From Actinomycetota bacterium (lineage in GTDB: Bacteria > Actinomycetota > AC-67), in contig VAWS01000002.1 in the NCBI GenBank assembly GCA_005884515.1, positions 1-37,882 of the forward strand: a DNA stretch of 37,882 bases, given 5' to 3'. Below are positions 3 to 31,168 of the stretch, piece after piece. The notes under the pieces were generated by a model, which was not told the origin of the DNA, made no database searches, and was given only the letters and a program-made list of their open reading frames with translations. The translations under genes were made by a program, and so were the position numbers. Position 1 is the first letter of the stretch. Each line of letters begins with the position of its first letter.

Positions 3-278
3 GAGGACGGCGCGCACTCATGCGGCGAGTCGCTTCTCTTCAACTTGATGCACATGGGATGCACGATCCCGCCGAACGTCGACACGTATTGGGTCGGCGA
101 TGCAGGACCGGGCCCCTCGTACATCGAGGCCGGTCAGGATCACGAGTACACGAAACGCACGACGCGGTGGACGGCGCACAACCTGGTGCACATGGCACGC
201 ATCCTGAAGGCGACCCCGATCCCTGCCGAAGGCAACACGCGCGAAGGCGACGAAGAGCACACGCTGCACGCGGGCTAG
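3..278 (+). CDS. NADPH-dependent FMN reductase / flavodoxin-family oxidoreductase, C-terminal part (truncated by window start)
   Basis: Frame 3 reads EDGAHSCGESLLFNLMHMGCTIPPNVDTYWVGDAGPGPSYIEAG...; resembles C-terminal half of NAD(P)H-dependent FMN reductase family; stop TAG 276-278. Confidence 0.6.
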   Translation, partial: EDGAHSCGESLLFNLMHMGCTIPPNVDTYWVGDAGPGPSYIEAGQDHEYTKRTTRWTAHNLVHMARILKATPIPAEGNTREGDEEHTLHAG

Positions 279-543
279 ACGGAGTCGTAGGTGGCGATAA
301 CGACGCCCGTCGTGGTCACGACGCTGTCCACCAGCTTCAATCGCACGACCGGCACACGGTCGGTGAAGAGGCGGCGGCCCGATCCGAGGACGATCGGGTA
401 GATGAGAAGCAGGAACGTGTCGATGAGCTGCCGTTGCATGAGCGACTCGATGAGAACCCGCCGCGCGTATCCTCGTCGGGACGAGCGGGCGCCTGCATCA
501 CGCCGTCGAGTGAAACGTTGTTGACGACCGTGATCGTGCCCAT
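275..543 (-). pseudogene. RibD_C / dihydrofolate-reductase-like protein remnant with internal deletion and frameshift
   Basis: N-terminus MGTITVVNNVSLDGVMQAPARPDEDTRGGF then, in another frame, VLIESLMQRQLIDTFLLLIYPIVLGSGRRLFTDRVPVRLKLVDSVVTTTGVVIATYDSV*; the central part of the domain is absent. Confidence 0.75.
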
Positions 544-561
544 CAGATGGAGACCAAGCCT

Positions 562-810
562 CTACTCAACTCTGTCTTCCGGCATCTGGAGGGCTCGGAG
601 GAGCTTAAGCACTGCATCCGCGTCGGACTCCGCTACAGAAACGTCGGCGCCTTCGACCGCGTCGATCGAGGGGTAAACGACCGATCGCGCGCGGACGACG
701 GCGCGGAAGCCGTTCGCCGCTAACGTCGTTCGGATGAGATCGGCCGACGCGAAGGACGCAAACGTCGCAACCACAACCGAGCCGTCCTCTTGCCGTCTAT
801 AGACGGTCAT
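562..810 (-). CDS. DUF2007-like putative signal-transducing protein
   Basis: 82 aa ORF MTVYRRQEDGSVVVATFASFASADLIRTTLAANGFRAVVRA..., typical of the short DUF2007 fold. Confidence 0.5.
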   Translation of the reverse strand: MTVYRRQEDGSVVVATFASFASADLIRTTLAANGFRAVVRARSVVYPSIDAVEGADVSVAESDADAVLKLLRALQMPEDRVE

Positions 811-861
811 GCCTCGATGCTACCGGCCGGCGCGCTCGGAGGCTCCGCGTGCGATGCATTG

Positions 862-1269
862 TCAACCACTCGGCAGGAAGGCGAGCACGATGTCGCGCGT
901 GGGGTTGTCGACGTTCGGATCGATGATCGCGATCCGTTGCCACGTGCCGAGCGACACCTCGCCGCCGATCACGGGTAGCGTCAACGTCGGCGCGATGAAC
1001 GCCGGCAGGACGTGTGCCGCACCGTGTCCGGCGCTGCCGTGGCTGTGGCGGTAGCGATGATCTCTCGGCAGCATGAACTCGAGCCGATCCCACAGATCGT
1101 CTTCGCTCCCGGATCCGAGCTCCATCAACGCGAGCCCGGCCGTTGCGTGTGGGAGCGAGACACTCACCAACCCGTCGCCTTCGCCGGAGACGAACGTCTC
1201 CACGTGATCCGTGATGTCGACGATCGCCGGCTTGCTTCCGGTCTTCACTTGGAAACTCGTCGTCTTCAT
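862..1269 (-). CDS. yjbQ: YjbQ family (UPF0047) protein, secondary thiamine-phosphate synthase-like
   Basis: 135 aa; HATAGLALMEL, DHRYRHSH...GHGAAHVLPAFIAPTLTLPVIGGEVSLGTWQRIAIIDPN.. R motifs. Confidence 0.85.
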   Translation of the reverse strand: MKTTSFQVKTGSKPAIVDITDHVETFVSGEGDGLVSVSLPHATAGLALMELGSGSEDDLWDRLEFMLPRDHRYRHSHGSAGHGAAHVLPAFIAPTLTLPVIGGEVSLGTWQRIAIIDPNVDNPTRDIVLAFLPSG

Positions 1270-1294
1270 GAACCGAGTCTAACGACCGGCCGGC

Positions 1295-1762
1295 TCAGCG
1301 ATCGGCGGGAACCGGCTCTCGCAGCCACTCGGGCAGGTACACGGCGCCCGGACCGTCCTCCGCTGCTTCGTCGTGCGGGTTCGAGAGTAAGCACGTCTTC
1401 AACGAGAGGCATCCGCAGCCGATGCACGAGTCCAAGCCGTCCCGAAGCGCAACGAGGGCATCGATCTCGCTATCGAGACGCTTTCGCCACGATCGAGAGA
1501 TCTTCGTCCAGTCGGCGCGCGTCGGCGTCCGCGAGGCAGGCAATCTCGAGAGCGCCGTACGCACTTCGTCAAGCGTGAGGCCCACGTGTTGCGCGGCGCG
1601 GATGAAAGCGAGGCGCCTCAGGACACTGCGCTCGTATCGGCGCTGACCACCCTCGGTCCGCCTCGCGAGGATCAGACCTTCTCGCTCGTAGAACCGCAGA
1701 GCCGAAGGGGCGAAGCCGCTTCTCGTTGCGACTTCACCAACTGTTAACAGGTCGATCCCCAC
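1295..1762 (-). CDS. soxR: Redox-sensitive MerR-family regulator SoxR
   Basis: MerR HTH (LLTVGEVATRSGFAPSALRFYEREGLI) and [2Fe-2S] motif CIGCGCLSLKTC (CX2CXCX5C). GTG start at 1762 with GGAGGA upstream preferred over the TTG at 1801, which lies inside the operator. Confidence 0.9.
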   Translation of the reverse strand: MGIDLLTVGEVATRSGFAPSALRFYEREGLILARRTEGGQRRYERSVLRRLAFIRAAQHVGLTLDEVRTALSRLPASRTPTRADWTKISRSWRKRLDSEIDALVALRDGLDSCIGCGCLSLKTCLLSNPHDEAAEDGPGAVYLPEWLREPVPADR

Positions 1763-1780
1763 GAACGAGTCCTCCGGTTC

Positions 1781-1811
1781 TTGACTTGAAGTTAACTTCA
1801 ACTCTTAGTCT
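1781..1811 (+). promoter_or_regulatory. Candidate SoxR operator/promoter of the SDR gene
   Basis: Perfect 16-bp palindrome TTGAAGTTAACTTCAA (1786-1801) between TTGACT (1781-1786) and TAGTCT (1806-1811), 19-bp spacer, divergent from soxR. Confidence 0.7.
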
Positions 1812-1846
1812 ACGCCTCGAACCATCCGAATGGAATGGAGGCACTC

Positions 1847-2230
1847 ATGAAGGTTGCGCTCATCACAGGAGCGTCCAGGGGGTTCGGAGCCGCCCTAGCA
1901 GACGAGCTGAACGCGCGCGGCTGGAGCCTCATCGTCGACGCGCGCCACGAGGACGCGCTCGCCGAGGCGGCCGCACGCTGGGAGAACGCGTTCGCGATCG
2001 CCGGAGACGTCTCCGAACCGGCGCACCTCGATGAGCTTGCGCGCGCGGTCCACCGGCTGGGACGGCTCGATCTGCTCGTCAACAATGCGAGCCTGCTCGG
2101 ACCGAGCCCGCAGCCGACGCTCGACCGCTACCCCATCGGCGTGCTCGCGAGCGTCTACGACGTGAACGTCTTCGCGCCGCTCGGCGATCTTGGGCGCGGA
2201 GAACCAAAGTATCGCCGCGTACGCATTTGA
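1847..2230 (+). CDS. Short-chain dehydrogenase/reductase, N-terminal fragment (frameshifted at about 2180)
   Basis: MKVALITGASRGFGAALADELNARGW..LLVNNASLLGP...YDVNVFAPL; then frame loss. SD GGAG upstream of ATG 1847. Confidence 0.8.
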   Translation: MKVALITGASRGFGAALADELNARGWSLIVDARHEDALAEAAARWENAFAIAGDVSEPAHLDELARAVHRLGRLDLLVNNASLLGPSPQPTLDRYPIGVLASVYDVNVFAPLGDLGRGEPKYRRVRI

Positions 2231-2393
2231 TCCCGGCGACATGCGCACCCAGATGCACCAGGAAGCGTTCCCCGGCGAGGACATCTCCGACCGGCCCGAG
2301 CCGGAGACCATCGTCGCCGCGCTGCTGCGCCTGATCGAAACGCGACCGAAGAGCGGCCGCTACCGCGCCGCCGACCTGATGGTGAACGCATGA
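2190..2393 (+). CDS. Short-chain dehydrogenase/reductase, C-terminal fragment
   Basis: GAENQSIAAYAFDPGDMRTQMHQEAFPGEDISDRPEPETIVAALLRLIETRPKSGRYRAADL; continues the SDR family after a missing central segment (YxxxK not found). Confidence 0.7.
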   Translation: MGAENQSIAAYAFDPGDMRTQMHQEAFPGEDISDRPEPETIVAALLRLIETRPKSGRYRAADLMVNA

Positions 2394-3436
2394 CGGCGAC
2401 GTTCACCGTTCCCACCGAGCTTTCGGCCACCGAGCCGCCGGAGTCACGTGGATTCGCGCGCGACGAGGTCAGGCTGCTCGTCGCGAACCCCGACGGCATC
2501 CGGCACACGCGCTTCCGCGAGATCGCGAGCTTCCTCGACCCCGGCGACCTCGTCGTCGTCAACACCTCTGCGACGATCCCGGCCGCCGTCGACGGGATCC
2601 GCGCATGCGATGAGCAGATCGTTGTGCATTTCTCGTCGCCCCTCGACGATGGAGCGTGGGCGGTCGAGTTGCGCCTCGCCGACGGGTCCGGACCGGTGCC
2701 CGACGCGATCGTCGGCGAAACCGTGTACCTCGAGGGATGCGAGAGCGCGCTGCTCGTCGCGCCGTACCCGGATGCGCGCGCACTGCTCGGGTCGAGGCTG
2801 TGGCGCGCGCGCCTCTCGATCGACGGCTCGGTGCCCGGCTACCTGGCGTTGCACGGCCGCCCGATCACGTACGGCTACCTGCGCGGAACGTGGCCGCTCG
2901 CCGATTACCAAACCATCTTCGCGCGCGACCCGGGAAGCGCCGAGATGCCCAGCGCCGCACGCCCGTTCACGGACAAGCTCGTCACCGATCTTGTCGTTCG
3001 TGGCCTCGCGGTCGCACCGATCACGCTCCACGCCGGCGTCTCTTCCCTTGACGCCGGCGAAGTCCCTCTGCCCGAACGTTTCAGCGTGCCGGAGACGACC
3101 GCGCGCCTCGTGAACTTCACGAGAAAGAACGGCCGACGCGTCATCGCGCTCGGGACGACCGTCGCGCGCGCGCTCGAAAGCGTCGCGCGCGCGGACGGAA
3201 CGGTGACGTCCGGCCGCGGGTGGACCGACCTCGTTCTCGGCCCCGACCGGCCGGCGCGCGCCGTGACCGGCCTCGTCACCGGCTGGCACACGCCGGAGTC
3301 GTCACACCTCGCCTTGCTCGAAGCAGTCGCCGGACGGCAGCTCGTCCAAGAGGCGTACGACGCTGCGCTCGAAGCCGGCTATTTATGGCACGAGTTCGGT
3401 GACAGTTGCTTGCTCTTGCCGAACAAAGGTCAGTAA
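2390..3436 (+). CDS. queA: S-adenosylmethionine:tRNA ribosyltransferase-isomerase (QueA-like)
   Basis: 348 aa; DLVVVNTSATIPA, GYLALHGRPITYGYL, LPERFSVPETTARLVN.., RVIALGTTVARALES motifs; ATGA overlap with the SDR. Confidence 0.8.
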   Translation: MTATFTVPTELSATEPPESRGFARDEVRLLVANPDGIRHTRFREIASFLDPGDLVVVNTSATIPAAVDGIRACDEQIVVHFSSPLDDGAWAVELRLADGSGPVPDAIVGETVYLEGCESALLVAPYPDARALLGSRLWRARLSIDGSVPGYLALHGRPITYGYLRGTWPLADYQTIFARDPGSAEMPSAARPFTDKLVTDLVVRGLAVAPITLHAGVSSLDAGEVPLPERFSVPETTARLVNFTRKNGRRVIALGTTVARALESVARADGTVTSGRGWTDLVLGPDRPARAVTGLVTGWHTPESSHLALLEAVAGRQLVQEAYDAALEAGYLWHEFGDSCLLLPNKGQ

Positions 3437-3591
3437 CCGCCGCCGGCGCCGCCGTGGTGGAAGGCGACGAAGTAGATGACGAGGTACGCGATTCCTCCGA
3501 TGAGAAGGTAGAGACCGACCAACTTCGGCCATCTCTTCTTGTATCCGCCCTGCTTCTGCGAACCGGTGTTGGCGCGCTCGCGGGTATCCAT
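3430..3591 (-). CDS. Small membrane protein, 53 aa (not in supplied ORF track)
   Basis: MDTRERANTGSQKQGGYKKRWPKLVGLYLLIGGIAYLVIYFVAFHHGGAGGGY*; GGAGG-type SD before ATG; one predicted TM; stop overlaps the 3' end of the queA-like gene. Confidence 0.6.
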   Translation of the reverse strand: MDTRERANTGSQKQGGYKKRWPKLVGLYLLIGGIAYLVIYFVAFHHGGAGGGY

Positions 3592-3670
3592 GGTGAAGAC
3601 CTCCTTCACCTACTGATACGCACGGCGCGCAAGCAGAGATTGCACCTTCCAGGACCAGGAACGTGCGTTA

Positions 3671-4195
3671 CTAGCCGACCGAGCCGGCGTCGGCGCCGCG
3701 CGCCCGGATGTCGGCGAGCACCTTGTCGAACAGCGCTTGCGCTTCTTTCGCGATCTGCTTCAGGTCCTCAACTTCGCGCGCCGCCTCCGCCGTCGCCGAC
3801 GGGTTCATGCGCGCGACCGTTTGCTCGAGCAGCTGCGCGCGCAGCCCCGCGGACACGGAAACCTCGGAAAGCTCTTGCAGCGTGATACGGAGCAGCCATC
3901 GAACTCGCCGGTCCTGCGTCTCCTTGTCGACGACGCGCGGCTCGCGCTGCTGTTGCTTCTGTTCGGGTAGCGGGACGCCTTCGCCGAAGTTCTCGCGGAC
4001 GTACGCTTCGAAGCGCACACCCTTGGGAATGCCGAGCTTCCGCCGGATCGCTTGCTTGTGACTTTCGAGCGTGCCGAGTGCGATCCCCAACGCTTCGCAC
4101 GCTTGGCTGGGCGCGACACCTTCGATGGCAAGGGCGATCACGCGCCACTCTTGCGGCGTGATCCTGCTCGCGCGGTCGACCATCGACTCGTCCAA
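3671..4195 (-). CDS. LuxR/GerE-type helix-turn-helix protein with C-terminal helical region
   Basis: ITPQEWRVIALAIEGVAPSQACEALGIALGTLESHKQAIRRKLGIPKG HTH near the N-terminus, followed by a charged helical tail. Confidence 0.65.
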   Translation of the reverse strand: MDESMVDRASRITPQEWRVIALAIEGVAPSQACEALGIALGTLESHKQAIRRKLGIPKGVRFEAYVRENFGEGVPLPEQKQQQREPRVVDKETQDRRVRWLLRITLQELSEVSVSAGLRAQLLEQTVARMNPSATAEAAREVEDLKQIAKEAQALFDKVLADIRARGADAGSVG

Positions 4196-4209
4196 CCTGT
4201 ACCGCCCCT

Positions 4210-5997
4210 TTACTCCAGCGCCTTCTGTCCCAAGAGCACTTTCAATTCGGCATAAAGCCCATTTCGCCTCTCCACACAGTATCGGTGAGGTAAGCGCAGA
4301 GTCTTAGCAGGGGTCGCCCCGGATAAGAGGCGTAGATGGACAGGAGTCGGCCCCGGATGGGACTCCAGAACGTCTTTCAGGCGCTCGACGAACGCCGGCG
4401 TGCAGGTTTCCGCAGGGACGCTCAGGACCAGGGGGGCCCCGCCGGGATCCAGGCTCGGGATGGCAATTTCTTGCGCTATGACTTTCGCCTCGTCGTCCCG
4501 CATGTCGATCTTGCCGCGCACGGTCACGATCGCGTCCGCGGCCAAAAGCGGCGCGGCCGACACGTACGAGCTCGGGAAAACGACGACCTCGACCGAACCC
4601 TGGAGATCTTCGAGCCAGAACACCGCCATCGGCTCGCCCTTCTTCGTGAACTTCTTCTGCATACGCGTAACGATGCCGCCGATGGTCACGCCGTCTTGGT
4701 CGCGCAGCCCGACGAGATCGGTGATCTTGTGCGACGACGCCTGGCGCAAGATGTCCTCCACGGCGAGCAGCGGGTGGTCCGACACGTACACCCCGAGCAT
4801 CTCTTTCTCGGCCGCCAGCAGCACGTTCTTCGGGATGTCGTCGCCCGTGGGCAGCTCGAAGTCGACGTGCATCGCCGGATCGTGCGCGAAGAGGCTGAAC
4901 TGGCCCTGCTCCGCCGCGCGCGCGTCCGCCACTGCGGCGTCGACGATGGACGCGACCTTCTCGTGCAGCACTACGCCCTTCTCCGCGTCCCGCTGCAGCA
5001 GCGATGTGCGATCGATCTTCAGCGAGTCGAACGCGCCGGCTTTCGCCAGCGACTCAACGACGCGCCGGTTCAGAACGATGTGGTCCACCTTCCGCGTGAA
5101 GTCGGCGAAGGAGGTGAACGCGCCTTTCTGCGTACGAGCCTTGATGATCTGTGCGACGACGCTCTCCCCCACGTTGCGCACAGCCGACAGCCCGTAGCGG
5201 ATCGTTCCTTCCGGCGTCGGCGTGAAGTCGGACTCGCTCGCGTTGACGTCGGGCGGCTCGACGGTGATGTTCAGGGCGCGCGCCTCCGCGAGGTACGCCG
5301 GGCTGCGATCCGGGTTGTCCTTGACGCTCGTCAGCAGCGCGGCCATGTACTCGATCGGATGGTTCGCCCGCAGGTAGCCCGTCTGGTACGCGACGAGCCC
5401 GTAGCACGCGGCGTGCGCGCGATTGAACGAGTAACCGGCGAACGGCTCGATCAGCTTCCATAAGCTGCGGGCCTGATCCTCGGTGAGGTCTTTCGCGCGC
5501 GCGCCCTCGAGGAACCGCGGCTCCTCGGCGTCGATCACCTTCTTGATCTTCTTCCCGAGCGCTTTACGCACAAGGTCCGCTTCGCCGGCGCTGTATCCCG
5601 CGATCAGCTGCAGGATCTGCAGGATCTGCTCTTGGTAGACGATCACGCCGTGCGTATCGCGCAGCACCGGCTCGAGCGCGGGGTGGAGGTACTGGACCGA
5701 CGATGAGTCGTTCTTGCCCCTGATGTACTTCGGGATCTCCTTCATCGGGCCCGGCCGGTAGAGCGCGACCATGGCCACGATGTCCTCGAACCGGTCCGGG
5801 CGCAGCTTCACGAGTGCGTCGCGCATCGGCGGCGACTCCAGCTGGAACACGCCCATCGTCTCGCCGCGGCTCAGCATCGCGTACGTCGCGGGATCGTCCA
5901 TCGGGATCGCGTCGATGTCGATCGTCACGCCGCGCTTCGCCAGCAGGTCGATCGCGTCCCCGAGGATCGTAAGGTTGCGGAGCCCGAGGAAGTCCAT
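4210..5997 (-). CDS. dnaE: DNA polymerase III alpha subunit, C-terminal fragment
   Basis: MDFLGLRNLTILGDAIDLL..., YQEQILQILQLIAGYSAGEADLVRKALGKK, FAGYSFNRAHAACYGLVAYQTGYL, OB-fold GGIVTRMQKKFTKKGEPMAVFWLEDLQGSVEVVVFP. Confidence 0.95.
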   Translation of the reverse strand: MDFLGLRNLTILGDAIDLLAKRGVTIDIDAIPMDDPATYAMLSRGETMGVFQLESPPMRDALVKLRPDRFEDIVAMVALYRPGPMKEIPKYIRGKNDSSSVQYLHPALEPVLRDTHGVIVYQEQILQILQLIAGYSAGEADLVRKALGKKIKKVIDAEEPRFLEGARAKDLTEDQARSLWKLIEPFAGYSFNRAHAACYGLVAYQTGYLRANHPIEYMAALLTSVKDNPDRSPAYLAEARALNITVEPPDVNASESDFTPTPEGTIRYGLSAVRNVGESVVAQIIKARTQKGAFTSFADFTRKVDHIVLNRRVVESLAKAGAFDSLKIDRTSLLQRDAEKGVVLHEKVASIVDAAVADARAAEQGQFSLFAHDPAMHVDFELPTGDDIPKNVLLAAEKEMLGVYVSDHPLLAVEDILRQASSHKITDLVGLRDQDGVTIGGIVTRMQKKFTKKGEPMAVFWLEDLQGSVEVVVFPSSYVSAAPLLAADAIVTVRGKIDMRDDEAKVIAQEIAIPSLDPGGAPLVLSVPAETCTPAFVERLKDVLESHPGPTPVHLRLLSGATPAKTLRLPHRYCVERRNGLYAELKVLLGQKALE

Positions 5998-7567
5998 CTT
6001 CAGGCAACCCCTCGAGGCCGCGCGCGACGTCGATCACCTGCTTCGAGTCGGGGTCCGTCTGGTACAAGGACCGCATGTCGCTCGCACCCGCGTAGGCCTG
6101 GTTCCCGCGGTCGCCGGGGGGCCACTCGAACGACTGATCGAAGCATGCGGCGAGCGGCGGGTCCTTCCCCAGGATCCCCGGTGGGTACGCGCGCGCGAGC
6201 CGGTCACCGACGACGTACGGCATGCCGAGCACACGCGCCGCGTCGCGGATCGCCTGCTTGCCCTTGATCGTTGCGAAGGTCACGATCTGCGCCACCCGCT
6301 CCTCGCCGTACTTGCGCACGGCGTACCGCAGCACCTCGCCGCGCCCGCGCACGTCGAAGTCCATGTCGATGTCCGGCATCTCCTTGCGCGCCGGGTTCAG
6401 GAAGCGCTCGAACATCAGCCGATACTTGATCGGGTCCATGCCGACGATCCCGAGGCAGTAGGACACGATCGAGCCGGCCGAGCTACCGCGGCCCGGGCCA
6501 CAGCGCACGCCGTTCGCCTTTGCGTACGCGATCAGGTCGGCGACGATCAAGAAATACGAGGCGAACCCCATGGACGCGATCGTCGACAGCTCGAACTCGA
6601 TCCGCTCACGGACCTCGTCGGTGAGCGGGTCGCCGTACCGCGCCGCAGCGCCCTCGTACGTCAGGCGTCGCAGGTACGCGTCGACGCTCTCACCGGTCGG
6701 CGTCACGAAGACCGGCAACCGCTGCACGCCCATCTCCAGCGTGACGTTGCATCGCTCCGCGATCTCGAGGGTGGCGTCGCACGCGTCCGGGTGGTCGCGG
6801 AACAGCGCGCGCATCTGCTCGGGCGACTTCAGGAAGAACTCTTCGGCGTCGAACTTGAAGCGGCCCGGCTCGTTGATCGTCGAGCCGGTCTGGATGCACA
6901 ACAGGACGTCGTGAACGGGCGCATCCTGCTTGTGGGTGTAGTGGAGATCGTTCGTTGCGAGCAGCCTCGTGCCGGTCCGTCTCGCGATGTCGATCAGGTG
7001 CGGGAACACGGTGTGCTGGTCGGCGAGGCCGTGGTCCTGGAGCTCGACGAAGAAGTTATCGGGGCCGAAGATCTCGCGGTACTCGCCGACGACCTTGGTG
7101 GCCTGCTCGACCTGGCCTTGCAGCAACAGCTGTCCGACTTCGCCGGCGAGGCAGCCGCTCGTCGCGATGATGCCCTTCGCGTGCTGCGCGAGCAGCTCCT
7201 TGTCGACGCGCGGCCGGTAGTAATAGCCTTCGAGGTGCGCGAGGGAGACGAGCTTCATGAGGTTGCGATAGCCCTCGTCGGTCTCGGCGACGGCCGTCAT
7301 GTGGTGGTTCGAGTCTTTCTCGCGCGAGGACTTCTCGAAGCGCGAACGGGTCGCGACGTACAGCTCCGAGCCGATGATCGGCTTCACGCCGTGCCGCCGG
7401 CCCGCTTGGTAGAAGTCGACCGCGCCGTACATGACGCCGTGGTCGGTGATCGCCATGGCCGGCATGCCTTGCTCGGCCGCGGACCGCATGAGCTCATCGA
7501 TGCGGCTGGCTCCGTCCAGCATCGAGTACTCGGTATGGGTGTGAATGTGGACGAAGCTGTCGGACAA
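5564..7567 (-). CDS. dnaE: DNA polymerase III alpha subunit, N-terminal fragment incl. PHP domain (meaningful homology ends at about 6005; the rest is out of frame)
   Basis: MSDSFVHIHTHTEYSMLDGASRIDELM..; GPGRGSSAGSIVSYCLGI; PDIDMDFD; ends ...DSKQVIDVARGLEG, then frameshift. Confidence 0.95.
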   Translation of the reverse strand: MSDSFVHIHTHTEYSMLDGASRIDELMRSAAEQGMPAMAITDHGVMYGAVDFYQAGRRHGVKPIIGSELYVATRSRFEKSSREKDSNHHMTAVAETDEGYRNLMKLVSLAHLEGYYYRPRVDKELLAQHAKGIIATSGCLAGEVGQLLLQGQVEQATKVVGEYREIFGPDNFFVELQDHGLADQHTVFPHLIDIARRTGTRLLATNDLHYTHKQDAPVHDVLLCIQTGSTINEPGRFKFDAEEFFLKSPEQMRALFRDHPDACDATLEIAERCNVTLEMGVQRLPVFVTPTGESVDAYLRRLTYEGAAARYGDPLTDEVRERIEFELSTIASMGFASYFLIVADLIAYAKANGVRCGPGRGSSAGSIVSYCLGIVGMDPIKYRLMFERFLNPARKEMPDIDMDFDVRGRGEVLRYAVRKYGEERVAQIVTFATIKGKQAIRDAARVLGMPYVVGDRLARAYPPGILGKDPPLAACFDQSFEWPPGDRGNQAYAGASDMRSLYQTDPDSKQVIDVARGLEGLPEDGLPRAPQPYDPRGRDRPAGEARRDDRHRRDPDGRSRDVRDAEPRRDDGRVPAGVAADARRTREAAPGPVRGHRGHGRALPAGPDEGDPEVHQGQERLIVGPVPPPRARAGAARYARRDRLPRADPADPAADRGIQRRRSGPCA

Positions 7568-7657
7568 ACCGCCGCCCCCGGGGAAGGCACGACTGGAAGA
7601 ATTACAGAGATGTCATTCTACCGCCGCGGCCGGGGACAGCCAAGGCTTCGCCGGATT

Positions 7658-8443
7658 TCACGACCTCGTTCGAGCAGCCTCGAGCGCCGCCGCCAGGTCT
7701 TGAGGGAGCGGATCGTCCAGCTCGATGAGGGCGCCGGTCGAGGTCCTGCCGGTGATCGGACGCGCCTCGACGAGAGCGGTGTCTGGCAACCTCTCGAGCA
7801 CCGTGATCTCCGTGACCGCCGAGCGGCCGCCGGCGACGACGGCCATCTTCTTCCGGTCCCGGGTCGAGCGGCCGATCGGCGCGTCGATCGTTGTGGTGGC
7901 GGTGTCGGGGATCCCTTCGACCAAGGCGAGATAGACCCGAGTCACCGCGCGCGCGGCGAGCGCGTCGGTCAGGGCGGCGTGGGTCGCTTCGTCCTTGGCG
8001 ACGATCATCAGGCCGCTCGTGCCGGCGTCGAGCCGGTGGACGATTCCGGGGCGCTCGGCGTCTCCCCCGGCCGGCGCTCCGCCGGCGCGCGCGAGCAGCG
8101 CGTTGACGAGAGTTCCCGAGCTGTGCCCGGGGGCCGGATGGACCACGAGACCCGCCGGCTTCGAGACGACGAGAAGATGCTCGTCTTCGAAGACGACGCG
8201 GACCGGGATCTCTTCGGCTTGGGGAACGGCGCTCTCGTGTTCGGGTATCGAGACGCTGACGCGCATCGCGTCCTCGACGCGCAAGGACTTCGTCGCCGCG
8301 CGCCCGTCCACCAGCACGGAACCCGCTGCGATCAGTTTCGCTGCAGCCGCGCGCGACATGCCGGCACGCGCGCTTACGAATGCGTCGAGCCGCGTCCCGG
8401 CGTCGTCGGCCGAGACGAGGAGCTCACGCGGGGGCGCGCTCAC
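7658..8443 (-). CDS. rluD: RluA/RluD family pseudouridine synthase with apparent in-frame internal deletion
   Basis: S4-like N-terminus; [33 protein letters not shown]; jumps from ARPITGRT directly to [23 protein letters not shown], skipping the usual HQIRVHL...QFLHA part. ORF can extend to 8467. Confidence 0.88.
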
Positions 8444-8814
8444 GCTCTTTCGCGCGACGCTCGGCACGATACGACGCGATCAGCAAGAGCAGCGCTCCGA
8501 TCACCACCGCCGAGTCGGCGACGTTGAACACCGGCCACCAGTGGAAGTCGATGAAGTCGATCACCCGGCCCCGGACCACGCCCGGCGGGCGCGCGATGCG
8601 GGAAGACCACCGGGAAGTGACGGAACAGACCGAACGCGGACCCGGGGTTTCGCTGCAGTGTCCACGCGAGCACGCCTCCGATCACGCGCCGCGACTCGCC
8701 CTCTCGCAGATCCGAAACGACAAGGGCCTTCGTGACCTGGTCGACGGCAACGACGACGGCGCCGGCCGCGAACAATAGGAGAGCGGTGCGGCGAGTGGGG
8801 GCGGGCGTCTCCAC
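8424..8814 (-). pseudogene. lspA: Lipoprotein signal peptidase LspA, interrupted (internal deletion plus frameshift at about 8590)
   Basis: Frame 1: METPAPTRRTALLLFAAGAVVVAVDQVTKALVVS...[20 protein letters not shown]; frame 2: [51 protein letters not shown]. Confidence 0.88.
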
Positions 8815-8853
8815 TTGCGAATCATATGCGCGCGCAGTGCGCGCGCCGGGTGC

Positions 8854-9597: not shown

Positions 9598-9813
9598 GTG
9601 GCTCCTCCTGGAACGTGCATCAGCACTCGCCGGGGGGCCGGCGGGATGCAGCAGGGTAGCATCGCCCCTATCGACCGTCAAACGTTTCATGCGCATGTGA
9701 ACGCAGGATGACGTCAATGTATTTCCGCAGGTCACGGCGTATGAAACGCGGGGGCGTCCGGAACCGGAGCGACGGTAAGATGGCGCCCGACGCCGACCCG
9801 GAGAGACCGCACC

Positions 9814-18660: not shown

Positions 18661-18771
18661 CGCGTGCGCGCGCGGATGAAGTGCTCGTTGAACCTTCGGC
18701 CGTGTGCGCTGGGGAAGACGCGCGATCGAGGCAGATCGGGTTGTCAATGCAGGTCAGGAGCGGTGTTAACG

Positions 18772-18788
18772 TTCAACTTGAGGTTGAA
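18772..18788. promoter_or_regulatory. Candidate operator dyad in ftsQ-ftsZ intergenic region
   Basis: TTCAAC-TTGAG-GTTGAA interrupted palindrome in an AT-richer patch upstream of ftsZ. Confidence 0.4.
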
Positions 18789-18900
18789 TAATCTGTAAAC
18801 CTCGAGTGACGGTCGAGAATGTACAACGCGCCTCTACCTCAAGTCAACACAAAGACTACGAAAAAATCGCGGTGTCGACACTCGTAGCGCGCGAAATGAG

Positions 18901-20596: not shown

Positions 20597-21993
20597 GAGC
20601 GTGCGCGCGCCTCGAGGCTCAGAAGGATATCGTCGCACAGCATCGTCACGTCGCCGGCGCCGATCGTCAGAACGAGGTCGCCGGGTAACGCACGTTCTGC
20701 GATGTACGGCACGATGTCGCCGCGCTTGGGCAAGTACGCGACGCGGCGACGCGGCTCGGCGTCCAACACGCCGTCGACGACGATCTTTCCGGTGATACCC
20801 GGCTGCGGATCCTCGCGGGCGCCGTACACGTCGGTGACGACGACCACGTCGGCTCCCGCGAGGGCAGCGCCCAGCTCTTTCCCCAGGTGCATCGTCCGCG
20901 AGTACAGGTGCGGCTGGAAGACGGCGACGAGCCGGCGCGGTGATTGCTCGCGCGCCGCAGCCAGCACGGCACGCACCTTCGACGGATTGTGCGCGTAGTC
21001 GTCCACCACGGTGACTCCCGCCGCAAGACCTCGGCGTTCGAACCGGCGACGCACCCCTGCATAACGCTCGAGCGCCGCCACGATCTCGGAGAATGCGAGA
21101 CCCACTTCGCTGGCAACCGCGACCGCCGCCAAGGCGTTGAGAGCGTTGTGCGCACCGGGAACCGGAAGATGAAGCTCCAGGGGTTTCCCGCCGTTGCGCG
21201 AAACCATCAACGTCTGCTCGCCGTTCGACGCGATCCGCTCCGCCGTCCAGTCTCCCTCGTTCAAGCCGTACGTGACGAGGCGCCGACGGACGCGCGCGGC
21301 GAGCGCGCGCACTCCGGGGTCTTCGATGCACGCAACGATCGCGCCGTCCGGTGGGACGTTCTCCATGAACGCGAGGAACGTGTCGCGCACCTCGTTCTCG
21401 TCCTTGTAGTGATCGAGGTGGTCGGCTTCGATGCTGGTCACGACCGCGATCTCCGGGGCGAGCCACAAGAACGACCCGTCGCTCTCGTCGGCCTCGGCGA
21501 CGAGCCACTCCCCCGCGCCGTCGTGCGCGTTGGTGCCGCGCTCGTTCACTTCGCCGCCCACCAGGAAGCTCGGATCGAGTCCCGCGTGCTGCAGCACGAG
21601 CGCGATCATCGACGTCGTCGTCGTCTTGCCGTGCGTACCGGCGACGGCGATGCCACGGCGGTCGCGCATCAATATCGCGAGCAGCTGCGCGCGATGCAGT
21701 ACGCGAACACCGGCCTCCTCGGCGGCGCGCAGCTCCGGATTGGACGGCCGGATCGCGGACGAGACGACGACCGTCTCGGCGTCGCCGAGGTTGGCGGCAT
21801 CGTGGCCGACCGCGATGCGCGCGCCCTGGACGCGCAGCGCTGCGAGGTCGGGAGACTCCTTCAAGTCCGACCCGGACACGCGCACGCCGCGCGCGAGCAA
21901 CACCTTCGCGAGCGCACTCATCCCGGCTCCGCCGATGCCGATCAGATGTACGGGGCCAAGCTCGGAGACGAGGGAACGCTTCGGCTCACGCAC
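20593..21993 (-). CDS. murC: UDP-N-acetylmuramate--L-alanine ligase MurC
   Basis: LGPVHLIGIGGAGMSALAKVLLARGVRVSGSDL, GIAVAGTHGKTTTTSMIALVL, EADESDGSFLWLAPEIAVVTSIEADHLDHY, VVDDYAHNPSKVRAVLAAAR. Confidence 0.97.
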   Translation of the reverse strand: MREPKRSLVSELGPVHLIGIGGAGMSALAKVLLARGVRVSGSDLKESPDLAALRVQGARIAVGHDAANLGDAETVVVSSAIRPSNPELRAAEEAGVRVLHRAQLLAILMRDRRGIAVAGTHGKTTTTSMIALVLQHAGLDPSFLVGGEVNERGTNAHDGAGEWLVAEADESDGSFLWLAPEIAVVTSIEADHLDHYKDENEVRDTFLAFMENVPPDGAIVACIEDPGVRALAARVRRRLVTYGLNEGDWTAERIASNGEQTLMVSRNGGKPLELHLPVPGAHNALNALAAVAVASEVGLAFSEIVAALERYAGVRRRFERRGLAAGVTVVDDYAHNPSKVRAVLAAAREQSPRRLVAVFQPHLYSRTMHLGKELGAALAGADVVVVTDVYGAREDPQPGITGKIVVDGVLDAEPRRRVAYLPKRGDIVPYIAERALPGDLVLTIGAGDVTMLCDDILLSLEARARS

Positions 21994-22984
21994 GGCGCGC
22001 CTCCGCGAGAGACATGATCCAGCTTGCCATCGCGTCGGCGGCATCCGGCCGTGAGACCGACCGCGCCGCATCCGCCATGTGTGCGCGCGCGGCCGGCTCA
22101 CCGAGGATCGGCGCGATCACGGAGTCGAGGTGGTCGGGCGTCGCGCTCGCGTCTTCCACGAGGGTGGCCGCGCCGGCGTCGACGAGCATGCGCGCGTTGG
22201 CGTGCTGCTCTTTCCGACGCGCGATCGGAAGCGGCACGAGCACCGCGGGGAGGCCGACGGGCTCGATGCGCGCACGGACGTCCGTGTCGTGCACGCTGCC
22301 GGTCACGATGATCATCTGCACATCCTCGCGCGCGCTCCAGCGCGCCGCGAGCCCGATCGCCGCTTCGTTCAGCCGGGCCGCGCCGAGGCTCCCGCCGAAA
22401 ACGAGGACGGTCGTGAGCTCGGGCGAGAGTCCGAAGGATTCCAGCGCCTCGGACCGCAGCGCCTCCCGCGAGAACCGTGTGATCGCTTTGCGCATCGGCA
22501 GCCCGACCAGCCGGGGCGAGCGCCCCCGGAACAGGCGCACTGTTTCCGGGAAGGAGACTGCGATGTTGGTCGTCAGGCGCGCAGCTGCCTCGTTCGCGAG
22601 ACCGGGGATCGCGTTGCCTTCGTGGATCAATGCCGGGAGGCGTGCGAGGCGCGCGGCGGTGACCACGGGCAAGCTCGGATACCCGCCCATCCCGACGACG
22701 ACCGATGCACCCTCGCTGCGAAGGATGCGGCGGGCTTGCGCGGTGGCCGGAAGCATCGATGCTGCCGCAACGATCCCGCGAAGGTCGCGTTTGAACGGCG
22801 CGACCGACGTCCGGTGGATACGGTACCCGGCGGCGTTGATCAGCGTCTGGTCGAGCTCGCGGGCCGTTCCGATGAACGAGATCGTGACGCCGGGTGCGCG
22901 TTCGTCGAGCGCGGCCGCGATCGCGAGCGCGGGAACGAGGTGTCCGCCGGTCCCCCCGGCCGCGATCACGACCGAATCGGTCAT
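21986..22984 (-). CDS. murG: UDP-GlcNAc:undecaprenyl-P-P-MurNAc-pentapeptide transferase MurG, with apparent in-frame internal deletion
   Basis: VVIAAGGTGGHLVPALAIA, GMGGYPSLPVV, LIHEGNAIPGLANE; after IIVTGSVHDTDVRARIEP jumps to VGLPAVLVPLPIARRKEQHANARML, omitting the usual acceptor/UDP-GlcNAc-binding segment. Confidence 0.93.
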   Translation of the reverse strand: MTDSVVIAAGGTGGHLVPALAIAAALDERAPGVTISFIGTARELDQTLINAAGYRIHRTSVAPFKRDLRGIVAAASMLPATAQARRILRSEGASVVVGMGGYPSLPVVTAARLARLPALIHEGNAIPGLANEAAARLTTNIAVSFPETVRLFRGRSPRLVGLPMRKAITRFSREALRSEALESFGLSPELTTVLVFGGSLGAARLNEAAIGLAARWSAREDVQMIIVTGSVHDTDVRARIEPVGLPAVLVPLPIARRKEQHANARMLVDAGAATLVEDASATPDHLDSVIAPILGEPAARAHMADAARSVSRPDAADAMASWIMSLAEARRA

Positions 22985-24240: not shown

Positions 24241-25562
24241 TGGTCGCTCCCCTCGATCCGATGGACGGCAGCGCGGAACGCATCCCCGCGCTCTTCGTAG
24301 TTCTTGAACATGTCGAACGAGGCACACGCCGGAGAAAGAAGGACGGTGTCGCCCGCTACGGCCAGCTCGCGCGCGCGCGCTACGGCATCTTCCATCGAGC
24401 CGGCCTTCTCCGCGGGGATGCCCGCCGGTGCGAACGCCGCGTCGATCTCACCGGCCGACTCTCCGATCGCAACGACGGCGCGCAGGTGCGGCGCGGCGGC
24501 TGCGAGCTCGGACAGATCCAGACCCTTGTTGCGCCCGCCGGCGATCAGCACGACGTCGTGCATCCCTTCGAGCGCGGCCAGCGTCGCGTGCGGGTCGGTC
24601 GCCTTCGAGTCGTTCACGTACGTGACCCCCTCGACGACGGCGATCTCCTCGATCCGGTGGCGGCCGGTTTCGAACGCAGCGAGCGCCGCCCCGGCCGTTG
24701 CCGGTTCGACACCGAGCGCGCACGCTACGGCGGCTGCGGCGATCGCGTCGCTGCGGTTCGGGCGCCCGCGCGCGCGCAAGCGAGACGCTTCGACGACACG
24801 GCCCTCGGGAACGACTATCCAGCCGTCCTCGACGCCCGCGCCGCCGTGCGGCCGCTGGTCGTCGGCGAACAGCACCTGCCCCGCTTTCCCCGTCGCCAGC
24901 GCGCGGCACACCGGATCGTCGTGAACGATGGCAACGTCTTCGGATCCCTGGTTTTCGAAGATGCGGCCTTTCGCGCGGCGGTAGGCCTCGTCCGAGCCAT
25001 GCCAGTCGAGGTGGTCGTGCGCGACGTTCAGCAGGACGGCCACGGGAACGCGGAACTCGTCGATACCCTGCAGCTGGAAGCTCGACAGCTCGGCGACGAT
25101 CTCGGCGTCGGGCGTGAACGATACGAGCGGCGTGCCCACGTTCCCCGCCGCAACCGCGTCACGGCCGGCCGCTCGCAACGCGGCGACCGTCATCTCGGTC
25201 GTCGTCGTCTTGCCGTTCGTACCGGTGATTGCAACGAGCGGCCGCACACCAAGCCGGAAGGCAAGCTCGACCTCGCTCCACACCGGGAGACCGCGCCGGC
25301 GCGCTTCCTCGATCCACGGCGACGACCACGGAACACCCGGGCTGGCGACGACCAGCTCGGCGTCGCCGAGGTCGGCGGGGTCGGTGCGGCCGAGAACGAC
25401 GCGAGCGCCGGCGATGCCATCGGCACGCTCGCGCTGCTGGTCGCCGTCTGCGGCGTCGAGCACCGTCACCGACGCGCCGGCGTCGAGCAGCGCGCGCGCG
25501 GCGGCCTCACCCGAGCGCGCCAAGCCGAGCACGACCGTCTTCTTCCCGGCGAGCGCGCTCAT
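24237..25562 (-). CDS. murD: UDP-N-acetylmuramoylalanine--D-glutamate ligase MurD
   Basis: MSALAGKKTVVLGLARSGEAAARALLDAGASVTVLD, LVAITGTNGKTTTTEM, ELSSFQLQGI, LNVAHDHLDWHGS, YVNDSKATDPHATLAAL, SPACASFDMFKNYEERGDAFR. Confidence 0.95.
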   Translation of the reverse strand: MSALAGKKTVVLGLARSGEAAARALLDAGASVTVLDAADGDQQRERADGIAGARVVLGRTDPADLGDAELVVASPGVPWSSPWIEEARRRGLPVWSEVELAFRLGVRPLVAITGTNGKTTTTEMTVAALRAAGRDAVAAGNVGTPLVSFTPDAEIVAELSSFQLQGIDEFRVPVAVLLNVAHDHLDWHGSDEAYRRAKGRIFENQGSEDVAIVHDDPVCRALATGKAGQVLFADDQRPHGGAGVEDGWIVVPEGRVVEASRLRARGRPNRSDAIAAAAVACALGVEPATAGAALAAFETGRHRIEEIAVVEGVTYVNDSKATDPHATLAALEGMHDVVLIAGGRNKGLDLSELAAAAPHLRAVVAIGESAGEIDAAFAPAGIPAEKAGSMEDAVARARELAVAGDTVLLSPACASFDMFKNYEERGDAFRAAVHRIEGSDQ

Positions 25563-26617
25563 ACCGGCGGGCCGCCCTTCGACAGGAACTCGGCATAGAA
25601 CAACCCGAGGCCGAGCGCCGCTGCGAGCCCGGCGATGATCCAGAAGCGGACGATGACCGTGAATTCCGGCCAGCCGCCCAGCTCGAAGTGGTGATGCAAC
25701 GGCGCCATCTTGAAGATACGCCGGCGGAAGCCCCGGAACGCGACCACCTGCATGATCACCGACGTGGTCTCGAGGACGAACAGCCCGCCCAGCACGACGA
25801 GGAGCAGCTGCGTGCTCGTCAGGATCGCCAGACCGGCGATTCCGCCGCCGAGCGCCAGCGACCCCGTGTCGCCCATGAAGATGCGCGCCGGCGCAGCGTT
25901 CCACCACAGGAATCCCGCGCACGCACCGAGACCCGCCGCCGCTACGACGGCGAGGTCGAGCGCGTCGGGGATGCCGTGGTAGCAGCCGGGCACGATCGCG
26001 CACGTCGTCGGCCCGTGACGGAACTGCCAGAACGCGATGAAGATGTACGCCGCGAACACGAGCGTGCTCGAGCCGGCCGCCAACCCGTCGAGGCCGTCGG
26101 TCAGGTTCACACCGTTCGTTGTGCCGGCCATCATCACGAACACCCAGACGACGAAGAACGGCCCGAAGTTGAGCGCGCTCTGGCGGATGAACGACAGCGT
26201 CGTCGGCGCGTTCGTGTGCGTGACGACCGCGACGGTGAACCCGACGGCCACGAGCAGCTGCCCCAGCATCTTCGCCGTCTTGTTGAGCCCGAGGCTCCGC
26301 TGCCGGCTGATCTTGATGTAGTCGTCGAGGAACCCGACGACGCCCATCGCGACCATCGTGCAGAGCACGATGCCGCCGGCCCAGCCGAAGCTGCCGCCGG
26401 CGAGGTGGGCCCCCACGTAGCCGGCGATGACGGCGATGATGATCATCACACCGCCCATCGTCGGCGTGCCGACCTTCTCGGCGTGATGCCCGATGTCGCC
26501 CCAGTCCTCGCGGAGGCGCTGCCCGAACCCCAGCCTGCGGAACGCCCGGATCAAGAACGGCGTGCCGCCGAGAGAGACCAGCAAGCTGATCATCGCGGCG
26601 AAGAGAACGGTCTTCAT
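25559..26617 (-). CDS. mraY: Phospho-N-acetylmuramoyl-pentapeptide-transferase MraY
   Basis: GTPTMGGVMIIIAV, GFLDDYIKISRQRSLGLNKTAKMLGQ, NGVNLTDGLDGLAAGSS, FMGDTGSLALGGGIAGLAI, HHHFELGGWPEFTVIVRFWI. Confidence 0.97.
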   Translation of the reverse strand: MKTVLFAAMISLLVSLGGTPFLIRAFRRLGFGQRLREDWGDIGHHAEKVGTPTMGGVMIIIAVIAGYVGAHLAGGSFGWAGGIVLCTMVAMGVVGFLDDYIKISRQRSLGLNKTAKMLGQLLVAVGFTVAVVTHTNAPTTLSFIRQSALNFGPFFVVWVFVMMAGTTNGVNLTDGLDGLAAGSSTLVFAAYIFIAFWQFRHGPTTCAIVPGCYHGIPDALDLAVVAAAGLGACAGFLWWNAAPARIFMGDTGSLALGGGIAGLAILTSTQLLLVVLGGLFVLETTSVIMQVVAFRGFRRRIFKMAPLHHHFELGGWPEFTVIVRFWIIAGLAAALGLGLFYAEFLSKGGPPV

Positions 26618-27990
26618 GGAGTTGGAACCTCGAGCGCGTGCGCGACGCGTTCCAGCCCCGCCGCGCGCGACGCCTTCACCAAGACGACGGCGTCGGGCTC
26701 CATGCGCGCGCGCAACACCGCGATCGCGTCGTCGATCGTTGCGGCGAAGATCGCTTCTCCGCCGAACATGCCTTCCAGCCGAGCAGCCTCGTGCACGGCG
26801 CGCGCATCCTCACCGACCGTCACCAGGTGCGTGACGCCCAAGCGGACGGCCAAGCGCCCGACGCGATCGTGCGCCGCGGTGGTCTCGTCGCCGAGCTCGG
26901 CCATCGGCCCCAGCACAGCCCACGAGGGTCGTCCGCGCGCCATCGCCGCGAGCGCCTTCAGCGCCGCGGCCGTCGAGTCCGGGTTCGCGTTGTACGCATC
27001 GTTCAGGATCCGCCGCCCGCCGACGTCGTGGAGCTCCATGCGCCACGCCGACCCTTCGGCGCGCGCGAGGCCGTCGGCGGCGCCGTGCAGAGACACGCCG
27101 GCTGCGCGCGCCGCCGCCGCGGCAGCAAGCGCATTGGACACCATGTGCTCCCCCGGCATCCGCAGCGTGACCCGCGCGCGCTCGTCGCCGGCGAGCAACG
27201 TGAACGTCGCGCGCGCCTCGTCGTCCAGCGAGACGCCTTCCGCACGCACGTCGGCTGAGGCTGCTCGGCCGAAGCTGACGACGTGTCCGCGCGTGCGCGC
27301 CGCGAGCGCGTCGACGCGTGGGTCATCGGCGTTGAGCACCGCCGTGCCCTCCGGCGCGAGCGCTTCGACGAGCTCGCCCTTCGCGAGCGCCGTGTTCTCG
27401 AGCGAGCCGAACATGCCGATGTGAGCCGGGCCGATGTTCGTCACGACGGCCACGTCCGGCCGGATCATCGGCGCGAGCGACGCGATGTGGCCGATGCCCC
27501 GGCTGCCGACTTCGATGACGAGGACCTCGGTGTCTTCGTCTGCGCCGAAGATCGTGAGCGGCACGCCGATCTCGTTGTTGTACGACGCATTCGCTGCGAT
27601 CGTCCTGCGCTCGCTCGCGCACGCGGCGGCGGTGAGGTCCTTCGTGCCGGTCTTGCCCGACGAGCCGGTGATCGCGATCGTCGTCGCCCGCAAACGCCTA
27701 CGGACGAACGCAGCGAGCGAGGACATCGCGGCGAGCGGGTCGTTCACGCGCACAGCAGCAGCGAATGCTCCGGCGTCCTCGCGCACGACCGCGGCGACGG
27801 CGCCGCCACGGACCGCGTCGTTCGCGAACGCGTGGCCGTCCGCGCGCTCACCCGCGAGCGCGAAGAAGAGCGCGCCCGCCGACGTCGCGCGCGAGTCGGT
27901 GATCACCGACGTCACGGTCGCGTCGGGATCAGCGCCGTCGACGCGGCCGCCGCACACCTCCGCGATTTCCTTCACGCTGAGAGCGATCAC
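26614..27990 (-). CDS. murF: UDP-N-acetylmuramoyl-tripeptide--D-alanyl-D-alanine ligase MurF
   Basis: ITDSRATSAGALFFALAGERADGHAFANDA, TIAITGSSGKTGTKDLTAA, NNEIGVPLTI, EVGSRGIGHI, ILNDAYNANPDSTAAALKAL, VLGPMAELGD. Confidence 0.95.
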   Translation of the reverse strand: MIALSVKEIAEVCGGRVDGADPDATVTSVITDSRATSAGALFFALAGERADGHAFANDAVRGGAVAAVVREDAGAFAAAVRVNDPLAAMSSLAAFVRRRLRATTIAITGSSGKTGTKDLTAAACASERRTIAANASYNNEIGVPLTIFGADEDTEVLVIEVGSRGIGHIASLAPMIRPDVAVVTNIGPAHIGMFGSLENTALAKGELVEALAPEGTAVLNADDPRVDALAARTRGHVVSFGRAASADVRAEGVSLDDEARATFTLLAGDERARVTLRMPGEHMVSNALAAAAAARAAGVSLHGAADGLARAEGSAWRMELHDVGGRRILNDAYNANPDSTAAALKALAAMARGRPSWAVLGPMAELGDETTAAHDRVGRLAVRLGVTHLVTVGEDARAVHEAARLEGMFGGEAIFAATIDDAIAVLRARMEPDAVVLVKASRAAGLERVAHALEVPTP

Positions 27991-28775
27991 CGGCGGCTCC
28001 GGCTCTGCAACGCTCCGCGCGCGACGATGCGGTCGTCGAATGGGATCGTGTGATCGGCGAACTGCTGGCCGGTCTCATGGCCCTTACCGGCGATCACGAT
28101 CACGTCGCCTCGCGCCGCGCCGTCGATCGCTGCTTCGATCGCCTCGCGCCGGTCTGCGATCCGCTCGAACGGGCGTCCCGTCTCGCGCGCGCCGGCTTCG
28201 ATCTGCTCGATGATCGCGATCGGATCTTCCGTCCGTGGGTTATCGCTTGTGATGATCGCGCGGTCGGCGAGTGTGGCCCCAACCTTCCCCATCAACGGAC
28301 GCTTGCCGCGGTCGCGGTCCCCGCCGCACCCGAACACGGCCACCAGGCGCGCGCCCGGCCGCGTGATCTCGCGCGCGGCGCGAAGCAGGCCTTCGAGCGA
28401 GTCCGGCGTGTGCGCATAGTCGACGAGCACCGTGAAGTCTTGGCCGGCCTCGATCGGCTCCATCCGGCCGGGGACACCGCGCAGCGACGCGATACCTTCG
28501 GCGACGGGACCGATCGGCAATCCCAGAGCGCGCGCAGCAGCGAGCACGCCGAGCGCATTCTCGACGTTGTACCGCGCGGGAAGGTTCACGCGGATCGGGA
28601 CCGATCGGCCGCCGACGTCTGCGATGAACGAGCTGCCGGTGCGGGCCAGCTCGAGGGAATGGCCGCGAACATCCGCTTCATGATCGATCGCGAACGTCAC
28701 GAGCGGCAGGTCCGTTCGGGCAGCGAGCGCGCGCCCTCGCTCGTCGTCGAGGTTCACGACCGCACGTTCGGACAT
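27987..28775 (-). CDS. murE: UDP-MurNAc-tripeptide synthetase MurE, C-terminal fragment
   Basis: SERAVVNLDDERGRALAARTDLPLVTF...; YNVENALGVLAAARALGL; VLVDYAHTPDSLEGLLRAARE; FGCGGDRDRGKRPLMG; ITSDNPRTEDP; GKGHETGQQFADHTIPFDD. Confidence 0.93.
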   Translation of the reverse strand: MSERAVVNLDDERGRALAARTDLPLVTFAIDHEADVRGHSLELARTGSSFIADVGGRSVPIRVNLPARYNVENALGVLAAARALGLPIGPVAEGIASLRGVPGRMEPIEAGQDFTVLVDYAHTPDSLEGLLRAAREITRPGARLVAVFGCGGDRDRGKRPLMGKVGATLADRAIITSDNPRTEDPIAIIEQIEAGARETGRPFERIADRREAIEAAIDGAARGDVIVIAGKGHETGQQFADHTIPFDDRIVARGALQSRSRR

Positions 28776-29347
28776 CTCAGGGCGGAAGAGCAGCGCTTTC
28801 GCGCGAGGCCCTCCGACGACGCTTCCATCGCAGCGCCGCCGACCCCCGCGTCGCGCATCGTCGAAAGGAGCCGTTGCAGATCGATCGCTTCCGGGGTCGT
28901 CCGTGTCACCGGCAGAACGGTGTCGCCGATGTGCGTCTCGACGGTGCCGATTACGCCCGGCGTAATACCCAGCGCGCGGAACACCGCTTCGAACATGAAC
29001 GTCGTCGTCGTCTTGCCGTTCGTTCCGGTCACGCCGACGAGCGTGAGCGCGCGCGACGGGTCGCCGAAGAACAGCGACGCGAACGGGCCCATCGCGGTGC
29101 GCACCGAAGGGACGATGGCCTGAGGAACCGGAACGTCGAGCGGCCGCTCGACCACGAGCGCCACGGCTCCTGCCTCGACTGCGCGCGCGGCGAAATCGTG
29201 TCCGTCGGCGTGCTCGCCCGGAACGCAGAAGAACAGCGTGCCCGGAGTAACGGCACGAGAGTCGTACGCGACGTCGTCGATCGGCACGCTGCCGTCTCCC
29301 TGCAGGCGCGCGCCGCGAACACCATCGACCAGGGTCTGAAGGATCAT
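28754..29347 (-). CDS. murE: UDP-MurNAc-tripeptide synthetase MurE, N-terminal fragment
   Basis: IDDVAYDSRAVTPGTLFFCVPGEHADGHDFA; LVGVTGTNGKTTTTFM; IGTVETHIGDTVLPVTRTTPEAIDLQRLL; AAMEASSEGLA, then frame loss at about 28805. Confidence 0.93.
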   Translation of the reverse strand: MILQTLVDGVRGARLQGDGSVPIDDVAYDSRAVTPGTLFFCVPGEHADGHDFAARAVEAGAVALVVERPLDVPVPQAIVPSVRTAMGPFASLFFGDPSRALTLVGVTGTNGKTTTTFMFEAVFRALGITPGVIGTVETHIGDTVLPVTRTTPEAIDLQRLLSTMRDAGVGGAAMEASSEGLARKRCSSALRCPNVRS

Positions 29348-29441
29348 GGGCACGGCGGTCGTCCTTCCCGCCCCGGCCCGCCGCCGGAACCGGGCGGGCC
29401 GCTCGGCCGGCATGCTGGCAGACGCGAACTGTACCACGCGC

Positions 29442-30173
29442 TCAGGGCTGCTTCGGGGTCTTCGATTTCGTCGGCAGCACCGCAGGCGTCGCCGCGGGGG
29501 ACGGCGATGCGGTCGGCGACGGCTTGGGCTTCGGCAAGGCGTGCGCGCGCATCTCGCCGATCGAGGGACCACCGGGCAGCGGTGCAGTCGGCGCGATCCC
29601 GAGATGCGCCAGTGAGTACTGCATGATCTGCTTGAAGACCGGCGCTGCCGTCGCCGCGGCGACACGCGGCGTCGGGTTGTACAGCTGCACGAGCGTGACG
29701 AGACGCGCATCGTCCGCCGGTGCCAGGCCGACGAAGGTCGTGATCAAGTTCGTCGAGTAACCACGCGCGTGCAGGTTCGGTACGCGCGCGGTTCCGGTCT
29801 TGCCGGCGACAAGGTACCCGGGGATCTGCGCGCGCGTCCCGGTTCCGTCTTCGACCACGCCGACGAGCATCCCGCGGACCTGGGCCGCGACGAAGGGGCT
29901 GACGACGCGGCGGCTCGGCGACGGCGGTGCCGGCGTCAGCGCCCCGTCGGGTTGCACCACCCCGCGGACGAGACGCGGCTGCACCTGAACACCGTCGTTC
30001 GCGATCGTCGCGTACACCATCGCCATCTGCAGCGGCGTGACGGCGATCCCTTGGCCGATCGGGATCGTCGCGAGGCTCGTCTCGTACCACTGGTCGTACG
30101 GGAGTGTGACGCCCGCCGACTCGCCCGGGAACCCGACGCCGGTCGGGCGCCCGTATCCGTACCGGTTGAGCAT
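29442..30173 (-). CDS. ftsI: Peptidoglycan D,D-transpeptidase FtsI, C-terminal fragment (homology in this frame begins at about 30255)
   Basis: Frame includes RTYADAIAESSNIGTIEVAIKVGKRRIYDMLNRYGYGRPTGVGFPGES (SxN) and VAGKTGTARV (KTGT) motifs. Confidence 0.92.
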   Translation of the reverse strand: MLNRYGYGRPTGVGFPGESAGVTLPYDQWYETSLATIPIGQGIAVTPLQMAMVYATIANDGVQVQPRLVRGVVQPDGALTPAPPSPSRRVVSPFVAAQVRGMLVGVVEDGTGTRAQIPGYLVAGKTGTARVPNLHARGYSTNLITTFVGLAPADDARLVTLVQLYNPTPRVAAATAAPVFKQIMQYSLAHLGIAPTAPLPGGPSIGEMRAHALPKPKPSPTASPSPAATPAVLPTKSKTPKQP

Positions 30174-31168
30174 GTCGTAGATGCGCCGCTTCCCGACCTT
30201 GATCGCAACCTCGATCGTCCCGATGTTCGACGACTCAGCGATCGCGTCCGCGTACGTGCGGCCTCGATCGCGGCCGACGCAGTGATCACCTTGTTCACCG
30301 ATCCCGGCTCGTACGCGTCTGTGACGATGCGGTTGCGCATCTCGGCCGGCGTCGCTGTGCCGAAGTTGTTCGGGTTCAGCGCCGGCCAGTTCGCCATCGC
30401 CAGCACGTCGCCGGTCTTCGCGTCCAGCACGACGGCCGTACCGTTCTGCGCTCCAGTCGCGCGCGCACCGCGCGCGAGGGCCTGCTCGGCGTAAAACTGG
30501 ATGTCCCGGTCGATCGTCGTCTGGATCCCATTGCCGTTGACCGGATCGACGATGGAGTTGCGGCCTTGCGGGATCGCGCGGCCTTGCGGGTCGTGCTCGA
30601 TGACCTGTTTGCCCGGGGTGCCGGAAAGGACCTTGTTGTACATCGACTCGAGCCCCGAGAGCCCGACGTTGTCGACGTTCACGAAGCCGAGCACTTGCCC
30701 GGCAAGGTCGTTCGACGGGTACGTGCGCGCCGTTTCGTCCAACGCGCCGACGTACGGGATCCGTAGGGCGAGCACCCGTTCGGCGACGTCGACCGGCACC
30801 TTGCGTGCGAGGTACACGAAGCCGGCCTGCTGGCTCAGCTTCGCCGTCAGCGTCTTCACGTCGATGCCGAGGATCGGCGAGATCTTCGTCGCGGCACCGG
30901 CCGGGTCGGTGATGCGCTGGGCGTCGGCGTAGAGCGCGCGCGCATCCGAGGAGACCGCCAGGGGGACCATGTTCCGGTCGAAGATCGCTCCCCGCTGGGC
31001 GGGAAGCTCGATCGTGCTTATCCGCTGCTGCAGGCCGAGCGAGTCGAGGGGTGCCGCCCGGACGATCTGGAGCATGACGAGCCGGACCGCGACCGACGCG
31101 AAGAGAAGCGTAAAGATGAAGAGAAGAACGACGAGCCGTAGAGCGGGCCGGGTGCCGCGACGACGCAC
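29936..31168 (-). CDS. ftsI: Peptidoglycan D,D-transpeptidase FtsI, N-terminal fragment (homology ends at about 30262)
   Basis: RGAIFDRNMVPLAVSSDARALYADAQRI...; VLDAKTGDVLAMANWPALNPN; EPGSVNKVITASAAIEA (SxxK), then frameshift. Confidence 0.92.
   Translation of the reverse strand: MRRRGTRPALRLVVLLFIFTLLFASVAVRLVMLQIVRAAPLDSLGLQQRISTIELPAQRGAIFDRNMVPLAVSSDARALYADAQRITDPAGAATKISPILGIDVKTLTAKLSQQAGFVYLARKVPVDVAERVLALRIPYVGALDETARTYPSNDLAGQVLGFVNVDNVGLSGLESMYNKVLSGTPGKQVIEHDPQGRAIPQGRNSIVDPVNGNGIQTTIDRDIQFYAEQALARGARATGAQNGTAVVLDAKTGDVLAMANWPALNPNNFGTATPAEMRNRIVTDAYEPGSVNKVITASAAIEAARTRTRSLSRRTSGRSRLRSRSGSGASTTCSTGTDTGARPASGSRASRRASHSRTTSGTRRASRRSRSAKGSPSRRCRWRWCTRRSRTTVFRCSRVSSAGWCNPTGR

Follow-up and report, generated by a model that had tools for sequence, protein, structure and literature searches.

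The window analyzed here is the entire contig C71 of the source MAG, 37,882 bp in length, with a GC content of 67.7% and zero N. The source MAG (G000) is a 2.39-Mb draft in 248 contigs and is 82.8% complete. Eight genes in the window each lack one internal piece. We compared them with G001, a MAG from the same genus (340 contigs, 62% complete, ~90–95% nucleotide identity to the window region), and with G002 and G003, which belong to other genera of the same family and were used as intact references. G010, a reference more distant than G002 and G003, was used for dnaE. The missing segments are present and intact in the relatives (G001, G002, and G003), and their sizes agree, including those measured against the other genera.

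At the start of the window lies a RibD_C/dihydrofolate-reductase-like gene (275..543, minus strand) whose frame is shifted at a join between positions 453 and 454. Alignment to PDB 8jsv gives a loss of ~99 aa, or ~297 bp, and the C-terminal half matches PF01872 at 145–196. This loss is an outlier, beyond the 72–163 bp range described below. Contig C287 of G001 carries 122 bp of the missing segment and then ends. An SDR-family gene (1847..2393, plus strand) has lost 137 bp at 2183/2184, also with a frameshift, and this size is identical when measured against each of G001, G002, and G003. The gene for the DNA polymerase III alpha subunit, dnaE (4210..7567, minus strand), is shifted in frame at ~6004, and its GC3 profile switches frame. 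Its loss measures 140–143 bp against G002 and G003, and 119 bp against the more distant G010. The next gene encodes an rluA-type pseudouridine synthase (approximately 7658..8450, minus strand) and has an in-frame join at ~7741, where 141 bp (47 aa) are missing as sized from the full G002 protein versus the window protein. Between dnaE and the rluA-type gene (window 7567–7742), G002 has ~2.5 kb extra and G003 ~1.3 kb, either a gene-content difference or a larger loss. Further large shifts relative to G002 and G003 (e.g., −183, +416, +1278, and +2459) fall between matched gene segments.

The remaining four genes are all on the minus strand. The signal peptidase II gene, lspA (8430 to approximately 8814), is frameshifted at ~8601 and has lost 119 bp, an identical figure against each of G001, G002, and G003. 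Both LspA halves match PF01252, with the profile position skipping from 49 to 101. The murG gene (21986..22984) lacks 126 bp (42 aa) in frame at ~22259–22261, and murE (27987..29347) lacks 100 bp with a frameshift at ~28804; both were sized against G002. The MurE halves match the expected family, and the Mur_ligase_M profile position skips from 69 to 105. Finally, ftsI, encoding a PBP transpeptidase (29442..31168), is frameshifted at ~30258 by a loss of 97 bp, identical against G002 and G003. The C-terminal part of FtsI enters the transpeptidase profile at position 94. Contig C128 of G001 stops 63 bp inside the missing ftsI segment. Since two G001 contigs end within segments missing from G000 (those of the RibD_C-like gene and ftsI), assembly may be difficult at some sites in both MAGs.

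The initial annotation, made from the window's letters alone, had proposed that these eight genes each lack one internal segment, and the coordinate jumps against relatives together with the jumps in Pfam profile position bear this out. All eight of its junctions agree to within a few bases with our alignments to relatives, and its division into six frameshifting and two in-frame joins (rluA-type and murG) is correct. Its expected loss of 30–110 aa also holds, as seven of the eight genes lack 32–48 aa. The gaps are real in the deposited sequence.

Next, we aligned sampled stretches of other G000 contigs with G001, covering 112,519 aligned bases (112.5 kb). Small indels of 1–19 bp numbered 105, and there were none of 20–71 bp. 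Beyond these, the alignment contains 24 losses unmarked by Ns, of 72–163 bp (mean 116, SD 21), in a count that is blind to losses common to both genomes. Fourteen are in G000 and 10 in G001; they lie at different sites, and in each case the piece is intact in the other genome. Their size distribution is therefore narrow and separate from that of the small indels (≤19 bp), and the losses recur across the assembly irrespective of gene or sequence. One of the 24 events involves a 72-bp tandem unit (L126:6920-6995, on G000 contig C35), of which G000 has one copy fewer than G001; this may reflect genuine repeat variation or a collapsed repeat. A few G000/G001 length differences of more than 400 bp lie outside the 72–163 bp cluster, including 666 bp (L135:9358-9400) and 421 bp (L134:16295-16868), and these two are possibly real.

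The joins are blunt. Exact microhomology at the junctions is 0–3 bp in all but the tandem-repeat case, where it is 18 bp, which rules out repeat- or microhomology-mediated deletion. The lost segments have a GC content of 0.668, versus 0.671 in random segments, and their folding energy per base resembles that of random segments of the genome. Dropout through GC content or hairpins was rejected, as the lost segments did not differ from random ones in these respects. The lost segments gave no cross-hits when compared with one another, and no shared ends were seen. Loss length is a multiple of three in 12 of the 24 events, versus 8 expected, which is not significant. We also searched the rest of the G000 assembly for the pieces supplied by G001 and obtained chance-level matches only; these pieces were not found elsewhere in G000.

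Other G000 contigs carry N runs, which excludes the simple case in which all Ns were stripped from the assembly. The N runs in G000 and G001 are irregular in length (2, 3, 4, 27, 29, 96, 183, 184, and 215), as estimates of gap size would be. Such a run proves too short where the other genome covers the gap: 29 N stand for 130 bp (short by 101), 183 N for 297 bp (short by 114), and 2 N for 83 bp (short by ~80). A run of 96 N, in a less conserved stretch, is short by ~135 bp. These shortfalls (80, 101, 114, and ~135) are within the range of the losses that carry no Ns. One gap of this kind faces the window itself: a queA-like gene is broken in G001 (C287, L017:2467-2469), where 2 Ns replace ~83 bases that the window keeps at 2650–2732.

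Losses of ~116 bp throughout G000, and at other sites in the sister genome G001, indicate assembly gaps that were closed without Ns. Judged from the assemblies themselves, this shows that contigs were abutted and a short stretch, typically ~116 bp, was dropped with no Ns written, in both G000 and G001 and at different places. On the same sequence evidence, the eight gaps in the window are almost certainly an artefact of MAG assembly and not biology, and the living cell presumably carries these genes in intact form. The initial annotation had favored an assembly that systematically closed short unsequenced gaps and wrote no Ns, and this reading gains support from the blunt 72–163 bp losses elsewhere in G000, from those at other sites in G001, and from the N runs, which are undersized to a similar degree.

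The exact software step behind the gaps is one that we infer. A short-read scaffolder may have produced gap estimates biased low by roughly 115 bp. A positive estimate would then be written as that number of Ns, and an estimate of zero or below would yield no N, with the contig ends abutted or trimmed instead. The occurrence of N runs of 2, 3, and 4 indicates that gap estimates extend to values close to zero. With no N written and the ends abutted or trimmed at zero or negative estimates, the shortfall would stay nearly constant. Losses without Ns are never smaller than 72 bp, which suggests either additional trimming of the contig ends, to the extent of the negative estimate, or false merging of read pairs.

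False merging would be a different artefact, in which non-overlapping read pairs were merged or concatenated before assembly, so that each fragment lost its unsequenced middle and such reads bridged low-coverage spots. An unsequenced insert middle would give both the narrow, unimodal loss size and the blunt joins. However, false merging alone leaves the similarly undersized N-run gaps unexplained, and we consider it an unlikely, though possible, source of the losses. Real deletions, arising by genome decay or in variant strains whose essential genes are broken, would agree with the eight genes being broken in the deposited sequence, and the few large length differences between G000 and G001 (421 and 666 bp) may indeed be real. 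But the uniform size, the blunt joins, and the fact that both genomes are hit at different sites all argue against deletion, as does a broken set that includes dnaE, lspA, murG, murE, and ftsI. Genome decay would also be expected to leave a broad range of deletion sizes, whereas the indels seen are ≤19 bp or 72–163 bp, with few above 400 bp. We regard real deletion as very improbable.

The likeness in size of the losses, at ~116 bp, could also recall short intervening elements or programmed elimination of DNA, the genes then being repaired at the RNA or DNA level. The absent pieces, however, are conserved coding sequence, mutually unlike and with no shared ends seen, and not an inserted element; those that G001 supplies are not found in the rest of the assembly, and the loss lengths are not multiples of three significantly more often than expected. 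Such elements are extremely improbable here. Equally improbable is the related idea that the population's DNA truly lacks these segments and that some undescribed process restores the genes. Mass pseudogenisation or an RNA/DNA-level repair system, which the initial annotation had raised in the event that reads supported the junctions, is not needed given the recurrence in the sister MAG. Undersized scaffold gaps closed without Ns remain our preferred reading.

Local assembly errors have been described previously and are suspected of being prominent where IDBA-UD was the assembler; left uncorrected, they lead to incomplete or incorrect protein-coding genes in public databases (Chen et al. 2020, PMC7111523; ra2.py). 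As in that study (Chen et al. 2020, PMC7111523), the errors reported here lie inside scaffolds and leave public MAGs with protein-coding genes that are wrong or incomplete. They differ in kind, as the errors in that study were unsupported consensus sequence and Ns inserted despite overlap, whereas G000 and G001 lose sequence without any Ns, the shortfall being nearly constant at ~116 bp. Our literature search found no published account of exactly this N-less, constant-shortfall behaviour.

By extrapolation, 14 such events in 112.5 kb of G000 would correspond to roughly 300 joins in the 2.39-Mb genome. Many genes would then be falsely broken or shortened, which would depress completeness estimates and mislead studies of pseudogenes, essentiality, and domain loss. 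Such genomes can be spotted without reads by comparing two congeneric MAGs, where the signs are no indels of 20–71 bp, a cluster of losses at 72–163 bp, blunt joins, and short N runs. The gaps themselves have no biological meaning, and their practical use lies in warning of such genomes and in testing for them without reads.
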